Counted from the stretch's first letter, positions 51,383 to 61,335 are shown. The stretch: 64,000 nt of DNA from Halopiger xanaduensis SH-6 (GCF_000217715.1 NC_015666.1:3484270-3548269), one strand, 5' to 3'. Made by a program: numbers and translations. Notes: a model not told the origin generated them from the letters alone.

Positions 51383-52429
51383 ATGAAAATCAGCCACTAC
51401 TTCGAGTTCGAGGACCACGTCACCGGCGGCATCCGCGAGTCCGTCGCCCACCAGCGCAAGATGCTGGACCGGCTCGACCTCGAGTACACGACCGAGCCGA
51501 CCCTCGAGGCCGACGTCTTCCACTGCAACCTCATGGGGCCCCGATCGGTCTGGTACGCCAGACGGGCCCGGAAGCGCGGGATCCCGGTCGTCGCCCACAC
51601 GCACGTCACCGCCGAGGACTTCGGCGACAGCTTCCGGTTTACGAACGCCCTCGCGAAGCCGCTGCGCCCGTACCTCGAGCGCGCGTACGGACTGGCCGAC
51701 GCGCTCGTCTGTCCCTCCGAGTACAACCGGGGGCTGATCGAGGGGTACGTCGACGGGTCCACGCCGACGCAGGTCATTTCGAACGGCGTCGACCGCGAGA
51801 AACTCGAGGGGTTCGAGTCGCTCCGCGAGGAGTATTTAGAACGGTACGACCTCGAGCCGCCGGTCGTCTTCCTCGTCGGCCACGTGATCAAGCGGAAGGG
51901 CTTAGAGACGTTCGTCGAGACGGCGCGCCAGTTGCCCGACGTCGACTTCGCGTGGTTCGGGCCGATCGACCGCTCGCTGAAGGGGCGGGAGACGAAGCAG
52001 TTGATCGACTCCGCGCCCGAGAACTGCACCTTCACCGGCTTTATCGACGACATCCGCGGTGCATACGCAGCGGGGGATATCTTCTTCTTCCCGACCCACG
52101 AGGAGAACGAGGGGATCGCCCTACTCGAGGCGATGACCGCCGGCAAAGCCGTCGTCGTCCGGGACATCGACACGTTCTCGTGGCTCGAGAACGGCGAGGA
52201 CTGTCTGAAGGTCGCAGCGGGCTCGAGCACTGCGGCGGACGCAAACTCAGACTCGAATGCGGCCGTCGCGACCGACGGCGGCCCCACGTCGTTCGTCGAC
52301 GCCATCGAGTCCCTGCGCGATCCCGACGTTCGGGACCGACTCGGATCGAACGCGCGCGAGCGCAGCGAGGGGTTCTCGCTCGAGACGATCGCACAGGCGT
52401 ACGAGCGGTTGTACGCGGAGGTGGTCTGA
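51383..52429 (+). CDS. GT4-family glycosyltransferase (first of pair)
   Basis: A 348-residue GT-B fold enzyme. N-terminal domain: 'ISHYFEFEDHVTGGIRESVA', 'VVAHTHVTAEDFG' and 'ALVCPSEYNRGLIEGYV'. C-terminal nucleotide-sugar domain: 'VVFLVGHVIKRKGLETFVE' (with the phosphate-binding Arg/Lys) and the EX7E motif 'EENEGIALLEAMTAGKAVV'. A small insertion near residue 280 is Ala/Ser/Asp-rich. Its stop codon (TGA 52427-52429) directly abuts the ATG of the next glycosyltransferase, so the two are co-translated. Sugar and acceptor are unknown. Confidence 0.9.
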   Translation: MKISHYFEFEDHVTGGIRESVAHQRKMLDRLDLEYTTEPTLEADVFHCNLMGPRSVWYARRARKRGIPVVAHTHVTAEDFGDSFRFTNALAKPLRPYLERAYGLADALVCPSEYNRGLIEGYVDGSTPTQVISNGVDREKLEGFESLREEYLERYDLEPPVVFLVGHVIKRKGLETFVETARQLPDVDFAWFGPIDRSLKGRETKQLIDSAPENCTFTGFIDDIRGAYAAGDIFFFPTHEENEGIALLEAMTAGKAVVVRDIDTFSWLENGEDCLKVAAGSSTAADANSDSNAAVATDGGPTSFVDAIESLRDPDVRDRLGSNARERSEGFSLETIAQAYERLYAEVV

Positions 52430-53548
52430 ATGAAGATCGGCTTCTTCACCGACAGTTACTTCCCCGAGATCGACGGCGTAACGTACACGATCGACCTCTG
52501 GCGCGAGGAGCTCGAGCGGCGGGGCCACGAGGTGTACGTGGTCTACCCCGACGGCGACTACGAGCCGGACGAGCGCGAGATTCCCGTCCGGTCGATGCCG
52601 AATCCCTTTTACTCCGGCTACCGGATACCGCTGACGAAGCGAGCGTCGGCGCTGCCCGACCTCGACGTCGTCCACTGTCACGGGCCGGCGCCGGTCGGCC
52701 TGCTCGGGCGCTACTACGCCTGGAAACACGACCTGCCGACGGTCTACACGCACCACACGCCGATCGAGGAGTACTTCCACCAGAGCGTCAAATCGAAGGC
52801 GATCGCGGGGCTGCTCAAGAAATTCTACGTGCCGACGGAGACCGCCTTCCTCCGAAGTTTCGACGTCGTCACCGCCTCGACGAATCGGATCGACCGCAAC
52901 GTCAACCACGTCCAACTCCCGGTCGGGATCGACATGGACTTTTTCCAGTCGACCGCGACCGACTGGTATCCCGACCCCGAGCAGACGGTCGTCGGCTACA
53001 GCGGCCGGCTCAGCATGGAGAAGAACGTCGAGGAGATCCTCCGCGTCGCCGCGGAGCTCCCCGAGTACGAGTTCGTCGTGGTCGGCGAAGGGCCGCGCCG
53101 CGAGCACCTCGAGGCCGAGGCTCCCGACAACGTGACGCTGCGCGATTTCCTCCCCCGGGAGGAACTCCCCGTATTCTACTCCTCGATCGACGCCTTCGTG
53201 ACCGCTTCGCGAGGCGACACGCTAGGACTGTCGACGCTTGAGGCCAACGCCTGCGGGACGCCCGTCGTCGCCGCCGACGTCCCGCCGTTCGACGAGACGA
53301 TCGAACCCGCCAACGGGATGCGATTCGAGTACGGCGACCGCGAGGAAATGGCCGCGACGATCGAGGATTGCCTCGCGGCCGACTGGGAGACCCGGGCCGC
53401 GGTCGAGCAGTACTCCGTCGAGCAGACGCTCGTCCACCTCGAGCAACTGTACGAGAACGCGCCGGGCTCGCAGACGACGACGGCGAGCGACGACGTCCAG
53501 TGGCAGGGGAAGGGGCAGGTCTCCGGCGCCGGCGACGAACAGGATTGA
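52430..53548 (+). CDS. GT4-family glycosyltransferase (second of pair)
   Basis: A 372-residue GT-B fold enzyme. It has 'IGFFTDSYFPEIDGVTYTID' (Gly-rich acceptor loop), 'VVHCHGPAPVGLLGRYYA' and 'PTVYTHHTPIEEYFH'. The donor domain has 'VVGYSGRLSMEKNVEEIL' and 'VTASRGDTLGLSTLEANACG', where the first Glu of EX7E is Asp. It resembles glycolipid glycosyltransferases (diglycosyldiacylglycerol or sulfoquinovosyl type), so an archaeol glycolipid acceptor is conceivable. The C-terminal 25 residues are a polar Gly/Gln tail. It shares an operon with the preceding gene. Confidence 0.9.
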   Translation: MKIGFFTDSYFPEIDGVTYTIDLWREELERRGHEVYVVYPDGDYEPDEREIPVRSMPNPFYSGYRIPLTKRASALPDLDVVHCHGPAPVGLLGRYYAWKHDLPTVYTHHTPIEEYFHQSVKSKAIAGLLKKFYVPTETAFLRSFDVVTASTNRIDRNVNHVQLPVGIDMDFFQSTATDWYPDPEQTVVGYSGRLSMEKNVEEILRVAAELPEYEFVVVGEGPRREHLEAEAPDNVTLRDFLPREELPVFYSSIDAFVTASRGDTLGLSTLEANACGTPVVAADVPPFDETIEPANGMRFEYGDREEMAATIEDCLAADWETRAAVEQYSVEQTLVHLEQLYENAPGSQTTTASDDVQWQGKGQVSGAGDEQD

Positions 53549-53586: not shown

Positions 53587-56500
53587 TCACTCGGCAACCG
53601 TCACCTTGCCGTCGGTCGCGTGCGATTGCAGCGCCGCGATCGCCTCTTGTGTCGCCTCCCGCGTTTCGTAGGCCTGTGCGCTCTCGAGCAGCGTCTCGCC
53701 GTTCTCGTCAACGAGTCGCCACTGCCACGGTTCGTCGCCGTTCGTCCGGTAGCGTTCGAAGGCGGGTCCCTCGAGTTCGAAGACGCTCGCCGACTCGAGG
53801 AGTGACCGAACATCGTCTATCCCGTCGCGAGCGGCCGCTTTCGTCTCCGTCGTCTCGTCGCCGATCGCGACGGGGTGGCCGTCGCCGTCGAGGAGACGCC
53901 AGCGCCAGCCGTCGTCTCGCTCGACGACGTCGAACGACGCCTCGGCGACGTCGATCCGCTCGGCGAGCGGCGCCAGCCGCTGGATATCGTCGACGGCCGC
54001 CGTCGTATCGGATTTATCGGCCGTCTCGACCGCGGTCGCGAGGACCTCCCGGCCGCGATCGATCAGGTCCCAGCGCCAGCCCTCGTCGGTTTGCTCGAGC
54101 CAGACCGCGGCCGCTCCGGCGTCGATCGCGAAGATCGGGACGGCTGACATCGACGCCTTCTCGAGCTCGTCGACGGCGTCCCGGGCCGCCGCTCGGCTGG
54201 AATAGGCCGTCGCCGACTCGAGGATCGGCTCGCGGTCGCGATCGAGGAGCCGCCAGCGCCAGGTCTCGCTGCCGACGAGTTGAACCGTCACCGCGCCGGT
54301 CGTGTACGATCGAGCGGCGGCCGCCGTCTCGCGAACGTCGTCGATTCGGTCCTCGAGTTCGTCTCGGGTTGGGTACTCGCTTCCGGAGACGGCCAGCGTC
54401 TCGCCGGTCGGGTGAACGAGCCGCCAGCGCCACGCACCGTCGGCGACGGCGGGCTGGAACGTCGCACCCTCGACCGCGTGGACGGGGCTGTCTGACTGAC
54501 CGCGGAAGCGGTCTACCGCCGCCCGAGCGGCCGCTCGGCTCGCGTAGGTCGTCGGCGCCGTCGCGACGCGGCGCCCGGCGGCGTCGATCAACCGCCAGGC
54601 CCACACCCCGTCCTCGTCGGTGAACAGTTCGAATTCGGGCGCGTCGATCTCCACGACGTCGGCGTCGGGTGCGCGCTCCTTGAGCGTCAGCATCGCCTCG
54701 ATAGCTTCGTTGCGGGAGTCGTGCTCGCCGTCGCTGTCGCCGAGGACGGCACCGCCCTCGTCGAGCAGCCGCCACCGCCAGTCCCCGTCGTCGTTCTCGT
54801 AAACGCGGAACGCGGCCGTCTTGAACGCGACGACGTCGGCCTCGCGGGCGTCCTCGCGGATGCGCTCGAGCGCTGTCGTCGCGTCCGCTGCGTCGCTGTA
54901 TGACGCCGCGCTCTCGGCGACCACGTCTCGGTCGGCCGTGACGAGCCGCCAGCGCCACCGCGCGCCGGCCGTCTCAGTTCCTGTGCCGTCAGCGACAGCG
55001 GTGGTCCCTTCGGCCGCGTCGCTTTCGTCGTTTCTCGAGTTGCCACCGGAGTCCGCCTCCGTGCGATCTCCAACGCGGTTGTCTTCCGGCGCGGAATCGG
55101 GATCGGAGTACGCCTCGTACGCCGCCTCGTCGATCTCGAGCACGGGCGCGTCGGACACCGCCTCGCGGATCAGTTCGGTGGCTCGTTCTACTTCGTCGAC
55201 CGTCGACGCGGCATCCGGCGCTCGAGCGACGGTTCGGCCGGCGTCGTCGACGAGCCGCCAGCGCCAGGCGTCGCCGTCACTACCTGCGCCATCGTCGTCG
55301 CCGGTCCGGCTGCGGTCGGCGTCACCGGCAGCGTCGGGATACCGTTCGAACGCGGGCTCCCCCGCATCGGTGACGACCGTATCCTCGAGGGCTGCGAGGG
55401 CTGCTGTCGCGGCGTCTTCGGCGGCCGGTCGAGTCTCGAATGCGGAGGGTGCGTCGGCGATGATATCGCTGTCCTCGTCGACGAGACGCCACGCCCACGT
55501 GCCGTTTTCTCCGTTCTCTTCTTCCCCCGGTTCGGTCTCCGATTCCTGATTTGACTTCGATTCCTGATCCAACTCCGATTCTCGGTCCGGCCCCGATTCC
55601 GGCTTCGGCCCCGGCGCAACCGTCCCAGACTCGTAGAGTTCGACGCCGAACGCGTCGACGTCGAGAACGCGTGCGTCCGCGATCCGATCGACGAACGTGT
55701 CGGCGGCTGCCACGGCGTCGGTGCGCCGTTCGTAGCCGTCCGCGCCGGCGGCCAGCGGCGTTCGCTCGTCGTCGACCAGTTGCCACTGCCACCGATCGCG
55801 GCGCTTCGCGATCGTGATCGCCCCCTCCTCGACGTCGACGACGTCGGCTTCGGGGCCGCAATCTTTCACGAGTCTCACCGCGGCTTCAGCAGCCTCGCGG
55901 TCGTCGTAGCCCTCGGCTGCGCTTCCGACGCGGCTGCCGTCCGCGCGACCCAGCGTCCACCGCCAGCTGCCGTCCTCGTCGCGATAGACGCGCACGGCAG
56001 CGTCGGTTACTTCGCGGAGCCCGGCAGCGTCGATCGCGTCTCGAGTCCGTTCGATTCGGTCCGTCGCCGTCGACCGGGTCGAGGCCCGCGCGGGACTCTC
56101 CGCGAGCGCCTCGCGGCGAAGCACCCGCCACCGCCAGTCGCCGTCGTCGCTCCGAAGGGCGACCTGCGCCCCTTCGATCGCGTCGCCGGTGAGCACCGGC
56201 GGCGTCTCGGTTTCAGTTTCGGGCTCGGTTTCGGACTCGAGTCGGTCGCCGTCCGTCCCTTCGAACTGTCTGTTCCGTCTCGTAAGGGAGAGTACGGCCG
56301 CGCCGACGCCGGCGAAAAGCACGATCCCGATCGCGACGGCGGCACCGGGGGATAACTCGAGGCCGCGTTCGCCCCACTGCATCTGTCCGAGCGTCCCGGT
56401 TGCGAGGCCGCCGTACAGGAGACTTGGACCTAACCCGAGGACAGCCCGCGTGCCGCGGTTGAACCGCTGTCCGGCGGGCACGTGTTGCACGGAGGACACA

Positions 56501-56589
56501 CGGGTCGGTTTCGCCGACGCTGCGGTCGTTCCGCCTGCGTCGGACGGCTCCCGTCGGCGGTATCGACGGACGGAGCGCGGGACTGACAT
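53587..56589 (-). CDS. 1000-residue membrane-anchored protein with 13 DUF1508-like repeats
   Basis: Two hydrophobic segments near the N-terminus (about 48-68 and 81-102) are followed by about 900 residues built from 13 copies of a DUF1508/YegP-type unit. Each has a core 'W-R/A/Q-W-x-L-x-D/x' strand (WRWRVLRRE, WRWTLGRAD, WQWQLVDDE, WAWRLVDED, WRWRLVDDA, WRWRLVTAD, WRWRLLDEG, WAWRLIDAA, WRWRLVHPT, WRWRLLDRD, WRWDLIDRG, WRWRLLDGD, WQWRLVDEN). It is followed by a 'Y-x-S/T-R-x-x-A-x-x-A' helix. Acidic linkers interrupt repeats 3-6. Single DUF1508 units form small dimeric folds of unknown role. ATG 56589 has a TATA box (TTATTAT) 30 bases upstream. Confidence 0.8.
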   Translation of the reverse strand: MSVPRSVRRYRRREPSDAGGTTAASAKPTRVSSVQHVPAGQRFNRGTRAVLGLGPSLLYGGLATGTLGQMQWGERGLELSPGAAVAIGIVLFAGVGAAVLSLTRRNRQFEGTDGDRLESETEPETETETPPVLTGDAIEGAQVALRSDDGDWRWRVLRREALAESPARASTRSTATDRIERTRDAIDAAGLREVTDAAVRVYRDEDGSWRWTLGRADGSRVGSAAEGYDDREAAEAAVRLVKDCGPEADVVDVEEGAITIAKRRDRWQWQLVDDERTPLAAGADGYERRTDAVAAADTFVDRIADARVLDVDAFGVELYESGTVAPGPKPESGPDRESELDQESKSNQESETEPGEEENGENGTWAWRLVDEDSDIIADAPSAFETRPAAEDAATAALAALEDTVVTDAGEPAFERYPDAAGDADRSRTGDDDGAGSDGDAWRWRLVDDAGRTVARAPDAASTVDEVERATELIREAVSDAPVLEIDEAAYEAYSDPDSAPEDNRVGDRTEADSGGNSRNDESDAAEGTTAVADGTGTETAGARWRWRLVTADRDVVAESAASYSDAADATTALERIREDAREADVVAFKTAAFRVYENDDGDWRWRLLDEGGAVLGDSDGEHDSRNEAIEAMLTLKERAPDADVVEIDAPEFELFTDEDGVWAWRLIDAAGRRVATAPTTYASRAAARAAVDRFRGQSDSPVHAVEGATFQPAVADGAWRWRLVHPTGETLAVSGSEYPTRDELEDRIDDVRETAAAARSYTTGAVTVQLVGSETWRWRLLDRDREPILESATAYSSRAAARDAVDELEKASMSAVPIFAIDAGAAAVWLEQTDEGWRWDLIDRGREVLATAVETADKSDTTAAVDDIQRLAPLAERIDVAEASFDVVERDDGWRWRLLDGDGHPVAIGDETTETKAAARDGIDDVRSLLESASVFELEGPAFERYRTNGDEPWQWRLVDENGETLLESAQAYETREATQEAIAALQSHATDGKVTVAE

Positions 56590-56622: not shown

Positions 56623-56734
56623 TGGACTGCTTATACGAGCCGTGTCGATCGATCGGCGTCGCACCCCGAACCGCGGCGCGTACCGACGGTTGCGACACGT
56701 GCTGGGTTCCGTAGCTCGGTAATACGGAGAAAGG

Positions 56735-56757
56735 GAGAGTACATTTCGTGTGCTTTC
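56735..56757 (+). repeat. ORB-like repeat 1 (forward)
   Basis: Core ATTTCGTGTGCTTTC preceded by GAGAGTAC. It matches haloarchaeal origin recognition box sequence and lies beyond the 3' end of orc1. Confidence 0.75.
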
Positions 56758-56802: not shown

Positions 56803-56826
56803 GGAGTAGATTTCGTGTGCTTTTTG
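56803..56826 (+). repeat. ORB-like repeat 2 (forward)
   Basis: Core GGGAGTAGATTTCGTGTGC followed by TTTTTGA. Same orientation as repeat 1, 67 bases further on. Confidence 0.78.
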
Positions 56827-56866: not shown

Positions 56867-58063
56867 TCAGTCGGCCGCCTGCACGATCTCCTCTCTCGTC
56901 TCGAGGACGATCATTGGATCCAGATCCAGTTCGTACTCGTAGTACTGACCGCCGCTGAGGCCCTTGTTGCGCTCGTGGCGCACGAGGAAGCCGAGCATGT
57001 GGAGATCCGACAGGTGGTCCTGAATGCTCTTCAACGTCGTCAGCGGCGTCGCCCCGTAGGCCTCTGCGACCCGTTCGTACCCCTCCTGGATCTCCTTCGA
57101 TCGAGCCGGGACCTCGTTCCGTTCCTCGAGTTTCGCGATCGTCTCGAGGATGTACTGGGCGTGCTCGGTCTGGTCGCGGATCTTGTTCCGCAGTCGACCG
57201 CGTTGGACGAGGGTGCGCGCGTCCTCGATGTGGTCGTCGGTGACCGTCTCGTCGCCGTCGCGTTCGGCGACCTCGGCGCCGACGCGGAGGAGGTCGATCG
57301 CTTGACGAGCGTTCCCCATGTCCTGGGCCGAGAGCGCCGCCGCCTTCGCGATCGCCGACTCGTCGCAGGCGCCGTCGACGAACGCCCGGTCGGCGCGGTC
57401 GTGGAGGATCGTCCGGAGTTCGCCGGCGTCGTACGGACTGAACGAGATTTCGGTCTCCATGAGCGTGTCCTTGACCTTCGCGGACAGCGACTGGCGGAAC
57501 GTGTAGTTGTTGCTGATGCCGACGATGCCGACCAGCGACTCCGTGATGTGGCCGTTCGATCGCGCCCGCGGCAGCTCGTAGAGCAGCGTGTCCACGTCGT
57601 CGAGGTGGTCGATCTCGTCGAAGACGATCAGGTGCGTGCCGCCGATCCGGTCGAGTTGCGCGTAGAGTTCGTCGAAGGCGTCGCCGGTCCCGAGCCCCCG
57701 CTTCGGAAACGGACTCGCGTCGGCCGGTAAGAGTTCGTTGACGAGCCGTCGAACGACCATGAACAGGGTCTTTCCGTTGCAGTTGATCTCGTGGACGTGG
57801 AGGTCGTCCACTTCCTCCCGCTCGAAGACCTCCGACTGCAGCTCGCTCATCATGTACTTCGTCACGGCCGTCTTTCCGAGACCGGCTTTCCCGTAGAGAA
57901 AGATGTTTTCGGGCTCTCGGCCGAAGAGAACGTCCTGCAGCGCGTGACTGAACGCCTCGATTTCCTCGTCGCGCTCGAGGATCTCCTCGGGCTGGTAGCT
58001 CTCGCTGAGGACCGACTTATCGGCGAAGAGAGTATCCGTAAGATCGCTAAACGGACCAGACAT
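56867..58063 (-). CDS. orc1: Orc1/Cdc6 replication initiator
   Basis: A 398-residue AAA+ initiator that binds origin recognition boxes and loads the MCM helicase. Walker A 'LYGKAGLGKTAVTK' (56-69, GKAGLGKT 58-65), Walker B 'LIVFDEIDHLDD' (about 148-159), sensor 1 'GIVGISNNYTF', and sensor 2 region 'GNARQAIDLLRVG' (about 248). The C-terminal winged helix (about 300-398, 'PLTTLKSIQDHLSDLHMLGF', 'GLSGGQYYEYELD') is complete. A TATA-like element lies about 33 bases before ATG 58063. ORB-like repeats on both sides show that it sits at an origin. Confidence 0.95.
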   Translation of the reverse strand: MSGPFSDLTDTLFADKSVLSESYQPEEILERDEEIEAFSHALQDVLFGREPENIFLYGKAGLGKTAVTKYMMSELQSEVFEREEVDDLHVHEINCNGKTLFMVVRRLVNELLPADASPFPKRGLGTGDAFDELYAQLDRIGGTHLIVFDEIDHLDDVDTLLYELPRARSNGHITESLVGIVGISNNYTFRQSLSAKVKDTLMETEISFSPYDAGELRTILHDRADRAFVDGACDESAIAKAAALSAQDMGNARQAIDLLRVGAEVAERDGDETVTDDHIEDARTLVQRGRLRNKIRDQTEHAQYILETIAKLEERNEVPARSKEIQEGYERVAEAYGATPLTTLKSIQDHLSDLHMLGFLVRHERNKGLSGGQYYEYELDLDPMIVLETREEIVQAAD

Positions 58064-58193: not shown

Positions 58194-58215
58194 GAGCACA
58201 CGAAATCTACTCTCC
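58194..58215 (-). repeat. ORB-like repeat 3 (reverse)
   Basis: GAGCACACGAAATCTACTCTCC, the reverse complement of the repeat 2 core. Nearest to orc1 of the upstream group. Confidence 0.78.
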
Positions 58216-58373: not shown

Positions 58374-58398
58374 GAAAGCACACGAAATCTACTCTCCC
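58374..58398 (-). repeat. ORB-like repeat 4 (reverse)
   Basis: Core GAAAGCACACGAAATCTACT followed by CTCCC. The core matches repeat 5 exactly; the repeat lies 180 bases from repeat 3. Confidence 0.82.
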
Positions 58399-58516: not shown

Positions 58517-58543
58517 GAAAGCACACGAAATCTACTCCCTCCC
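58517..58543 (-). repeat. ORB-like repeat 5 (reverse)
   Basis: Core GAAAGCACACGAAATCTACT followed by CCCTCCC. The outermost copy, 143 bases beyond repeat 4 and about 95 bases before the end of the MMPL gene. Confidence 0.82.
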
Positions 58544-58638: not shown

Positions 58639-61335
58639 CTATTCAGGGACGAGCCGCCCGATCGAGAGCGTCCCGTACTTTGTCTCGAGGCGGTCCCAGA
58701 CGACGATCACCGAGGGAAGCACGACGATCGACGTGAGCCAGGAGTAGAAGACTCCCAGCGCCAGCAGGAGGCCGAACTCCATGATCAGCGGGATCAGTGC
58801 GAAGTACAGCACGCCGAGTCCGCAGACGGTCGTGAGCATGCTCCCAGTGAGGGCGCCGCCAGTACCACGGACCGTCACGAGCAGCGCCTCGTCGACGTCG
58901 CCGCGCTCCTCGTACTCGTCGACGAACCGGTGCATAAGGTGCACCGTGTAGTCGACGCCCAACCCGATCGAGACCGAGAGGATCGGTGCGTTGATCGGAC
59001 TCAACGGCACGTCGAAGTACCGCATCGAACCCGCGAGCATCGCGACGGCCAGCAACACCGGCACGAGGTTGATCACGCCGTAGATCGCCCGTCCCTCGAG
59101 CCACCAGTACGAGAGGACGAGCAGGACGACCGTCAGCAGGAACGCGACGAAGAGGCTCGTGATCGCCGAGTCGCCGATCTTCTCGACGACGCTCTCGAAG
59201 ATGACCAGTTGCCCGGTCGCGGTCGCGTCCATGTTCATTTCGTCGGCGACCTCGCGTGCGGCGGCGACGGCTTCGGCCTGCTCGGCGTCGGCCTCGACCT
59301 GGATGTCGATTCGCGTCGCGCTGCGGTCGGTCGTCAGGCGACCGGCCGCTTCGTCCTCGGCGACGGCGAACAGGTCGTCGTAGACCGCGTCGACGTTCCG
59401 ATCCGGAATTTCGTCGCCGTCGCCGTCGTACCGCTTGACCGTCCTCGAAAACTCGGGATTCGCCGCAGACTGCTCGTCGATCACGTCGAGGATACTGGTC
59501 GCATCGGCCTGCCGGCCGTCCGTCTTGAAGGCGTCCGGGGGGTCCTCGAGCGAATTGTCTATTTCGCGGAGCGCGCCGTCGTCGCGCAACCCCGGATCGT
59601 CGACGTAGACCGTCACCGACCCCTGCATCCCTTGATCGAAGTCCTCCTCCATGATGTCGAGGACGGTGATGAAGGTGTACTCGGACGGGGAAAGCGGTCC
59701 GGGTAGAGACTCGTACTGCTCGAGGCGATTTTCGTCGGGGAAGAACGCCTCCTGGTCGAACTCGGTGCTGACGCCGGTGCCGTACGCGGCGACGCTGGCG
59801 CCGAAGACGAGCATCGCGACGAGGAAAACGACTGGGATGACGCGTGCGACGTGGACGCCGACTGGAAGCACCCGCCCCAGCCGCGACTCTTCGCTTCCTA
59901 GCGGTTCGGTTCCGAACGACGGGAACCGCGTTCCCTCGCGAAGTTGGTCGAGGGCGACCTTCCCCGCGGGGAGGAAGACGCCGAAGATGAGGAACGTGAA
60001 GCTGATGCCGGCCGCGGCGACGATCCCGAAGTCCCGAGTCATGTCGCTGGTCAGGTTCGCCGCGAAGCCGAAGACCGTCGTCAGGGTGACGATCAACAGC
60101 GCGGTCGTGAGCTGGCCGGTCGTGATTCCCATCGCGTCGCCGATCGATGCGCCCGCGGACCGTTCCTCGCGGTAGCGGTTGATGATGTGTATGCCGAAGT
60201 CGATTCCGACCGCCAACAACAGTGGGAAGACGGTCAGCAGGGAGTCGGAGAAGGGGATACCCGCGAACCCCATGAAGCCGAACGTCCAGATCATCGACAT
60301 GAGCAGCGCCGCCAGGCCGAGCGCGAGATCGATCGGGTCCCGGTAAGCGATGATCAGGAACAGCAGGATCAACAGTAGCGCCGCCGGGAAGACGACGATC
60401 GCCGTATCGCCGAGCAACTGCATCGTCTCGTCGTTGACGACGGGTTGCCCGAAGACGACGATATTGTCGTCCGAATCGAAGCCGTCGATCTCGTTCGCGA
60501 CGTCCTCGGTTTCGTAGATGAGGTCCGCGTGGTACGACTCGTCCGCGTTCGACGGCGTATCGTAGGTGATCGCGATCTGTGCGACGTCTGCGGACGCGGA
60601 CTCGCGCGTGAAGTCGGTACTGACCGGCAAGCCCATCGTCTCGTCGGCCGTCGCGATCGCCTTCTCGAGTTGTCGCGGCGAAGCGCGCTCGATGGCGCGA
60701 CGTTGTTCTTCAGCGGTCGTCGCATTGGCATCGAGCTGGGTCGCGACCAGCGAGGCCGGACTCGTCGACGAGGCGACGCGCAGCCCGTCGTCGTTCTCGA
60801 TCCGATCCTGGAACTCGAGCATCCGAACCAGGTTCGGTTTCGAGATCGCGTTGCGGTCGTCCGTGAGGAACAGCTGGGCGGTCGTCCCGCCGGAGTCCCG
60901 ACTCCCACGATTGAAGTCCTCTTGCATACTCTCGTAGGCCTCCTGGGCCTCGGTATCCTCGGTGAACTGGTCGGTACCGGCTTCCTGTCCACCGCCGCCA
61001 GCGACGGCGCCCCCGAGGAAGAGGGCCGTCAACAGGAGGAAGACGATCACGACAGTCCACGGGCGGTTCGTAATTAACGGGTTAACCCGACGTGTGAACG
61101 GGTCATCGCCTAGGAAATCGTCGTCGTCACTACGAGAGCCGGTACTGGAGCCGCTACTCTCGCTCCCGGCGTTGCGCTCCGTCCCGCTTCCGAGGCCGAG
61201 ATCGAAATCAAAGTCGAGACTAAATCCAAAGATGCCACTATCGTCGCTCGAGTCAGGCGAGTCGGACGAACCGTTCGAACGTCCCTCCGAGCGACGGGGC
61301 GAGGACTCGTCGGCGGTGCGGTCGTCATCAGTCAT
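58639..61335 (-). CDS. MMPL/RND-superfamily exporter
   Basis: An 898-residue protein. The first about 90 residues are a disordered Ser/Asp/Gly-rich cytosolic tail. Two repeats follow, each with one span, a large outer domain and five spans: the first outer domain at about 115-310, the second at about 520-715. RND marks are 'FPLLLAVGIDFGIHIINRYREE' (span-4-like Gly-Asp, split here over two spans) and its counterpart 'SVSIGLGVDYTVHLMHRF'. It should move a hydrophobic or lipid-like substrate with proton exchange. Start ATG 61335 lies 9 bases after the COG1361-like gene, forming one operon. Confidence 0.88.
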   Translation of the reverse strand: MTDDDRTADESSPRRSEGRSNGSSDSPDSSDDSGIFGFSLDFDFDLGLGSGTERNAGSESSGSSTGSRSDDDDFLGDDPFTRRVNPLITNRPWTVVIVFLLLTALFLGGAVAGGGGQEAGTDQFTEDTEAQEAYESMQEDFNRGSRDSGGTTAQLFLTDDRNAISKPNLVRMLEFQDRIENDDGLRVASSTSPASLVATQLDANATTAEEQRRAIERASPRQLEKAIATADETMGLPVSTDFTRESASADVAQIAITYDTPSNADESYHADLIYETEDVANEIDGFDSDDNIVVFGQPVVNDETMQLLGDTAIVVFPAALLLILLFLIIAYRDPIDLALGLAALLMSMIWTFGFMGFAGIPFSDSLLTVFPLLLAVGIDFGIHIINRYREERSAGASIGDAMGITTGQLTTALLIVTLTTVFGFAANLTSDMTRDFGIVAAAGISFTFLIFGVFLPAGKVALDQLREGTRFPSFGTEPLGSEESRLGRVLPVGVHVARVIPVVFLVAMLVFGASVAAYGTGVSTEFDQEAFFPDENRLEQYESLPGPLSPSEYTFITVLDIMEEDFDQGMQGSVTVYVDDPGLRDDGALREIDNSLEDPPDAFKTDGRQADATSILDVIDEQSAANPEFSRTVKRYDGDGDEIPDRNVDAVYDDLFAVAEDEAAGRLTTDRSATRIDIQVEADAEQAEAVAAAREVADEMNMDATATGQLVIFESVVEKIGDSAITSLFVAFLLTVVLLVLSYWWLEGRAIYGVINLVPVLLAVAMLAGSMRYFDVPLSPINAPILSVSIGLGVDYTVHLMHRFVDEYEERGDVDEALLVTVRGTGGALTGSMLTTVCGLGVLYFALIPLIMEFGLLLALGVFYSWLTSIVVLPSVIVVWDRLETKYGTLSIGRLVPE

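Follow-up and report, generated by a model that had tools for sequence, protein, structure and literature searches.

At a locus of Halopiger xanaduensis SH-6, a gene encoding a chain of 13 DUF1508 units lies beside a predicted replication origin, and the question is what such an array could serve. DUF1508 is a family of unknown function, as is DUF7139, the second family involved here. The locus was analysed within a stretch of 64,000 nucleotides (the window), to which the coordinates refer unless a contig is named. The gene runs on the minus strand from an ATG at 56589 to a stop codon at 53587-53589 (Table 1). An alternative GTG start is possible at 56664; the relatives, whose proteins begin with MSV, MSS or MSF, start where the ATG sits, in agreement with that choice.

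An earlier note on this DNA had read the protein as 13 DUF1508 units, each with a W-x-W-x-L strand, and this reading is borne out. In the Pfam search, PF07411 (DUF1508) matches the whole protein in 11 stretches with 260.4 bits (E=5.4e-79), above the curated cut-off of 22 bits, and the NCBIfam model of HVO_2922 matches as well (E=1.5e-74). The relation of the units to DUF1508, which the note wanted checked by profile search, was thus found. With an iterated, family-specific unit profile, 13 units of 38-72 bits each are delineated, and the strand is present in 13/13 as W-x-W-x-[LV], far above chance. A search of the window against Rfam found no RNA.

Table 1. Features of the giant gene and of the adjoining predicted origin, in positions of the window.
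Feature	Position	Strand	Details
Giant DUF1508 protein gene	53587..56589	-	1000 aa, ATG; type B paralogue: truncated DUF7139 + 13 DUF1508 units
Weak first TM segment, residues ~48-67	56389..56448	-	Aligned with DUF7139 TM3; under hydropathy threshold
TM helix, residues 84-102	56284..56340	-	Hydropathy 2.47, then RRNR; aligned with DUF7139 TM4
DUF1508 unit 1, residues 141-194	56008..56169	-	Unit profile, AlphaFold2 model
DUF1508 unit 2, residues 197-253	55831..56001	-	Unit profile, AlphaFold2 model
DUF1508 unit 3, residues 256-311	55657..55824	-	Unit profile, AlphaFold2 model
DUF1508 unit 4, strand 1 314-321, disordered loop, core 358-408	55366..55650	-	Unit profile, AlphaFold2 model
Acidic disordered loop in unit 4, residues 322-362	55504..55626	-	AlphaFold2 model, composition
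DUF1508 unit 5, strand 1 413-419, loop, core 436-486	55132..55353	-	Unit profile, AlphaFold2 model
Acidic disordered loop in unit 5, residues 420-440	55270..55332	-	AlphaFold2 model, composition
DUF1508 unit 6, strand 1 489-496, loop, core 536-589	54823..55125	-	Unit profile, AlphaFold2 model
Acidic disordered loop in unit 6, residues 497-543	54961..55101	-	AlphaFold2 model, composition
DUF1508 unit 7, residues 592-648, exact middle	54646..54816	-	Most conserved, most HVO_2922-like
DUF1508 unit 8, residues 651-704	54478..54639	-	Unit profile, AlphaFold2 model
DUF1508 unit 9, residues 709-763	54301..54465	-	Unit profile, AlphaFold2 model
DUF1508 unit 10, residues 765-818	54136..54297	-	Unit profile, AlphaFold2 model
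DUF1508 unit 11, residues 827-881	53947..54111	-	Unit profile, AlphaFold2 model
DUF1508 unit 12, residues 884-939	53773..53940	-	Unit profile, AlphaFold2 model
DUF1508 unit 13, residues 942-998	53596..53766	-	Unit profile, AlphaFold2 model
ORB-like repeat between orc1/cdc6 and giant	56737..56754	-	1 mismatch
ORB-like repeat between orc1/cdc6 and giant	56804..56821	-	Copy of AGCACACGAAATCTACTC
orc1/cdc6 replication initiator gene	56867..58063	-	TIGR02928, E=1.8e-120
ORB-like repeat upstream of orc1/cdc6	58195..58212	+	Copy of AGCACACGAAATCTACTC
ORB-like repeat upstream of orc1/cdc6	58377..58394	+	Copy of AGCACACGAAATCTACTC
ORB-like repeat upstream of orc1/cdc6	58520..58537	+	Copy of AGCACACGAAATCTACTC

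Every one of the 13 units is predicted to fold. In the AlphaFold2 model of the window protein (36 sequences, mean pLDDT 76, pTM 0.61), all show the beta-beta-beta-alpha-beta succession of the DUF1508 fold, with a three-strand sheet, a helix and a fourth strand, at a pLDDT of roughly 70-96; the concern that most units might be unfolded is not supported. A homologue of Haloferax marinum, of the canonical form described below, was modelled with a pLDDT of 84.5 and a pTM of 0.55 and exhibits a short N-terminal helix, four transmembrane (TM) helices and 13 folded units. The global pTM of just 0.55-0.61 leaves the overall shape of the chain unestablished. DUF1508 units are expected to pair, as a homodimer or, in two-unit proteins, as a pseudo-dimer. 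An alternation in helix lengths or gaps, which might betray pairing in the form (1,2)(3,4)(5,6) 7 (8,9)(10,11)(12,13) with unit 7 left over for dimerisation, was not seen.

The low-confidence residues of the window model (324-360, 428-437 and 503-539) belong to three acidic stretches with 26-33% D+E, which in units 4, 5 and 6 separate strand 1 from the WxWxL strand and are predicted to be disordered. They had been described as acidic linkers in units 3-6. The acidity holds for units 4-6, but the stretches are not linkers: they lie within the units, beside strand 1, and are hence beta1-beta2 loops, the true gaps between units being ~2-5 residues in most HMM matches. At the unit 6 position, an insert is found in most family members, and most relatives carry a long insert only there. 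The inserts of units 4 and 5 are confined to the genus of the window gene among the copies sampled, the one in unit 4 being an extra insert common only to the same-genus copy L040.

The gene is not the singular oddity it was taken for. Long homologues (E below 1e-70) occur in ~34/61 genomes searched, and about half of the related genomes are without a giant. With the unit profile, 13 units were counted in 39/39 extracted proteins and in 41/41 loci of named organisms with a complete frame; together, these sets hold 70 distinct 13-unit proteins, some of them ~30% identical, from at least five haloarchaeal families (Natrialbaceae, Halorubellaceae, Natronomonadaceae, Natronoarchaeaceae and Haloferacaceae). 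Only damaged or truncated genes deviate: L117 is cut by the end of its contig, L122 is a broken gene and L085 is frameshifted, yet its two frames jointly retain the array. L085 is the canonical giant of Natrinema thermotolerans, whose reading frame shifts about halfway along the array, either as a pseudogene or through a sequencing error. Three proteins (L088, L091 and L113) gave 14 profile matches in one re-search and 13 in the other count; the extra match is taken as a split match obtained with filters off. A repeat number that varies between strains, which the earlier note had proposed to look for, was thus not encountered, every intact homologue found having 13.

Between species, units of the same index are 45-79% identical and off-index units 18-42%, and the best match shares the unit index in 89% of 12,870 tests. 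Since same-index units match across species, the array was put together before the families diverged, and its number has been kept since. These comparisons argue clearly for an old array, with a count fixed at 13 and positionally orthologous units. An invariant repeat number is unusual among tandem repeat proteins. It implies selection on overall length or geometry.

The canonical form of the protein (type A) consists of DUF7139, with four TM helices and the motif YVGEPDSxxDVYGYW, followed by 13 DUF1508 units. The own genome carries such a copy as its second giant (L039, C3:1812109-1814781; PF23600 for DUF7139, E=8e-40), flanked by genes for pantoate kinase and phosphopantothenate synthetase. 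This gene order, pantoate kinase, giant, phosphopantothenate synthetase, all on one strand, is found in over 60 loci fetched; a same-strand kinase lies upstream in 66 loci and a same-strand synthetase downstream in 63, some genomes being counted twice. The upstream gene matches the pantoate kinase model NF040725 with E=6e-53, under the cut-off of that model, which was made for methanogens. The downstream gene is a phosphopantothenate synthetase (PF02006, E=1e-76; NF041123 over its cut-off). For at least two canonical copies, L114 of Haloferax marinum and L119, the flank fetched contains no CoA gene. Pantoate kinase and phosphopantothenate synthetase are the two archaea-specific enzymes of CoA synthesis. 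In most of the genomes checked that have no giant, their genes stand side by side on one strand, hence the giant either entered or dropped out of a pre-existing pair. The conserved order may simply reflect vertical inheritance after one insertion.

DUF7139 by itself is far commoner, being present in 280/292 genomes. Short DUF7139 proteins of ~300 aa (L150-L156) have a C-terminal CGNCxHFxYV...PYC...MDDMDxCxEW that resembles a metal-binding ribbon, and 7/7 of those viewed finish in a CxxC-type cysteine motif. In other haloarchaeal proteins (L144, L146, L148 and L149), one or two DUF1508 units stand behind another acidic domain of ~90 residues.

The window protein shares with type A the 13 units in register, but its gene is flanked by orc1/cdc6 and a glycosyltransferase gene instead of the kinase and synthetase genes. 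It falls in a clade of seven sampled proteins (type B, SH-aLRT 100), placed by a quick tree among the canonical proteins of Natrialbaceae with a support of 98; all seven retain 13 units. No DUF7139 match was found in the window protein with PF23600, but its residues 45-136 align to residues 99-181 of the own-genome paralogue ORF (E=5e-6), which is the second half of DUF7139. On the strength of alignment, tree and gene order, its derivation from the DUF7139-bearing form of the CoA locus appears firmly established: the window gene is, on this evidence, a paralogue of later origin within Natrialbaceae, no longer at the CoA locus and with half of DUF7139 lost.

In one rival reading, the function is tied to the adjacent origin: the protein would attach the orc1/cdc6-ORB origin to the membrane or regulate it, or its expression would be controlled by Orc bound to two upstream ORBs. 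The orc1/cdc6 gene is flanked by five AGCACACGAAATCTACTC copies, three upstream and two inverted on the giant side, a set unique to this locus; when the whole genome was scanned with 2 mismatches allowed, one further, weaker match came up elsewhere, and none for a control pattern. The two ORBs on the giant side lie 148 and 215 bp upstream of its ATG, and Orc binding there could affect the expression of the giant. The arrangement of orc gene and giant, with the 3+2 ORB layout, is kept in three genomes, that of the window as well as G001 and G020. An RND/MMPL-family transporter gene (58639-61335) adjoins the origin and is likewise kept by orc and giant in G001 and G020.

The earlier note had placed the gene beside the origin and asked whether it is always next to oriC. 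A predicted origin does adjoin it, but not the major one, and the orc link holds in only 3/7 type B members (G000, G001 and G020). OapB marks the major origin of haloarchaea (PMC7921747, PMC10927574), beside which OapA/B/C, also named ArvA/B/C, are encoded as small GTPase, DUF2073 and DUF2072 proteins (PMC10927574). The window giant has different domains, and the OapB gene of its genome is located at C3:728681, beside another orc gene. The major oapABC/oriC1 origin is hence not the one in the window, which is predicted to be secondary. Furthermore, none of the four other type B genes has an orc gene nearby, the canonical copy resides in the CoA locus, and the evolution of the two neighbours is unlike, with a dN/dS of 0.03 for orc and 0.28 for the giant. 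A function bound to the origin is thus considered unlikely.

Could the array instead protrude from the cell, as a membrane-anchored rod or adhesin? It is a long repeat protein with an N-terminal TM segment, and the adjoining glycosyltransferase genes (51383-53548) suggest a cell-surface neighbourhood; these genes are, however, convergent with the giant, on the opposite strand. Of the double membrane anchor described earlier, the helix at 84-102 is supported by hydropathy and by a modelled helix at residues 81-102, while the first segment is weak in the window protein and clearer in some relatives. Given the alignment of residues 45-136 with the second half of DUF7139, the double anchor would be a remnant of TM3-TM4. 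The N-terminus is Arg-rich, and RRNR follows the last TM segment; under the positive-inside rule, these charges at both ends of the predicted hairpin place the array in the cytosol. From these residues we infer a cytosolic array. Of the two filament types suggested at first, the surface one is thereby disfavoured, and the extracellular rod seems quite unlikely. Neither PGF-CTERM nor another sorting signal was noticed in the protein, and the related HVO_2922 and YegP carry, to our knowledge, no export signal.

The suggestion of a multivalent array, with 13 roughly equivalent sites binding many copies of one ligand, draws on the 13 copies of one fold, each with its WxWxL strand. The units are, however, strongly differentiated by position, and the middle one stands apart. 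Unit 7 is the most conserved, with 79% identity between species. Scored with a profile of five haloarchaeal DUF1508 units, taken from proteins with one or two units, it reaches 60 bits, against 19-37 for the other units, and it ranks first in 38/38 canonical proteins and in 6/7 of type B. Unit 7 keeps a DGNVLADSGEEH stretch, the counterpart of NGNIIADSGEGY in DUF1508 proteins that stand alone; the window copy has a partly eroded version of it (GGAVLGDSDGEH vs. DGNVLADSGEEH). Judged by these scores, the resemblance to free-standing proteins of the HVO_2922 type persists in unit 7 only, which, with the differentiation of the units, speaks against 13 binding sites of equal kind. In arrays of equivalent sites, the number usually differs between species, but here the count is fixed. 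The multivalent array is accordingly regarded as quite unlikely.

A duplicate drifting toward loss, its selected function gone, is improbable: the truncated DUF7139, the eroded unit 7, the extra disordered inserts, the sporadic occurrence and an evolution faster than that of the canonical copy (dN/dS 0.28 vs. 0.09) would fit, but a dN/dS well below 1 over 978 codons clearly indicates purifying selection, the 1000-aa frame is intact, 13 units are found in 7/7 members sampled and the fold prediction is confident.

The explanation that we prefer, tentatively and at somewhat less than an even chance, is a membrane-tethered cytosolic scaffold of fixed length. The membrane domain would tether the array as a scaffold arm; most units would be structural, and unit 7 would carry the ancestral DUF1508 activity, that is, the binding of a partner or ligand, or dimerisation. 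The canonical copy would serve the CoA-synthesis enzymes encoded beside it, and the window copy, released from the CoA locus, would then have diverged. Both the scaffold role and the partners are inferred. As about half of the related genomes are without a giant, the protein is not essential to CoA synthesis. The partial erosion of the unit 7 motif in the window copy counts against this explanation. In a narrower version, rather unlikely as a whole, 12 copies would form the cytosolic fixed-length arm and only the central one would retain the ancestral site; the protein would be a membrane-tethered scaffold or sensor of CoA synthesis, and the window paralogue would have been redeployed elsewhere, its expression exposed to Orc binding. 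With the count of 13, the orthology of the units, the conserved central unit and the placement in the CoA locus, a gene that was anonymous now offers a concrete hypothesis that can be tested; a canonical copy is present in H. marinum, and genetics is available in Haloferax.

The domain families and single units are already known; the 13-unit array is not described in the papers found. In an open-access literature search covering DUF7139, DUF1508/UPF0339, YegP, HVO_2922 and pantoate kinase, no function was found, no paper naming DUF7139 and no such array. The PLSDB annotation of the Natrialba magadii member reads only 'DUF1508 domain-containing protein'. Foldseek did not match the overall arrangement of the whole chain among solved structures (best query TM 0.07).

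HVO_2922 of Haloferax volcanii (PDB 6q2z, NF041908) matches the giant's units with a Foldseek probability of 1.00 and a target TM of 0.73, unit 7 being the best sequence match; unlike the giant, it is a single unit of 60 residues, with two identical chains in the PDB entry and no membrane domain. A transcriptome list includes it among the genes induced by perchlorate and places it with repair genes without a test (PMC12175516). YegP of E. coli (2k8e) and SO3888 of Shewanella (2k49), of UPF0339, share the unit fold, also with a probability of 1.00, but have just two units per chain and no TM segment. Their target TM is low (0.42-0.44), hence neighbouring units may be positioned differently with respect to each other in the model. 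All3315 (7b5h_AD) gave one weak sequence match to the array profile at residues 1075-1158 (E=8e-5), together with a local structural match; it is a contractile injection, phage-tail-like baseplate protein without a repeat array. Alg12 also matched the array profile weakly.

A separate haloarchaeal family (L132-L140), mostly with a DUF7139-like N-terminus and a DUF1508 array, differs from the giant in having 3-6 units, several of them with the free-standing NGNxxAD.GEGY motif. The canonical protein itself (L039; L114) is a direct paralogue. It has four TM helices, the YVGEPDSxxDVYGYW motif, its usual place in the CoA locus and one disordered loop, whereas the window copy has the second half of the membrane domain only, lies beside an orc gene and carries three disordered loops.
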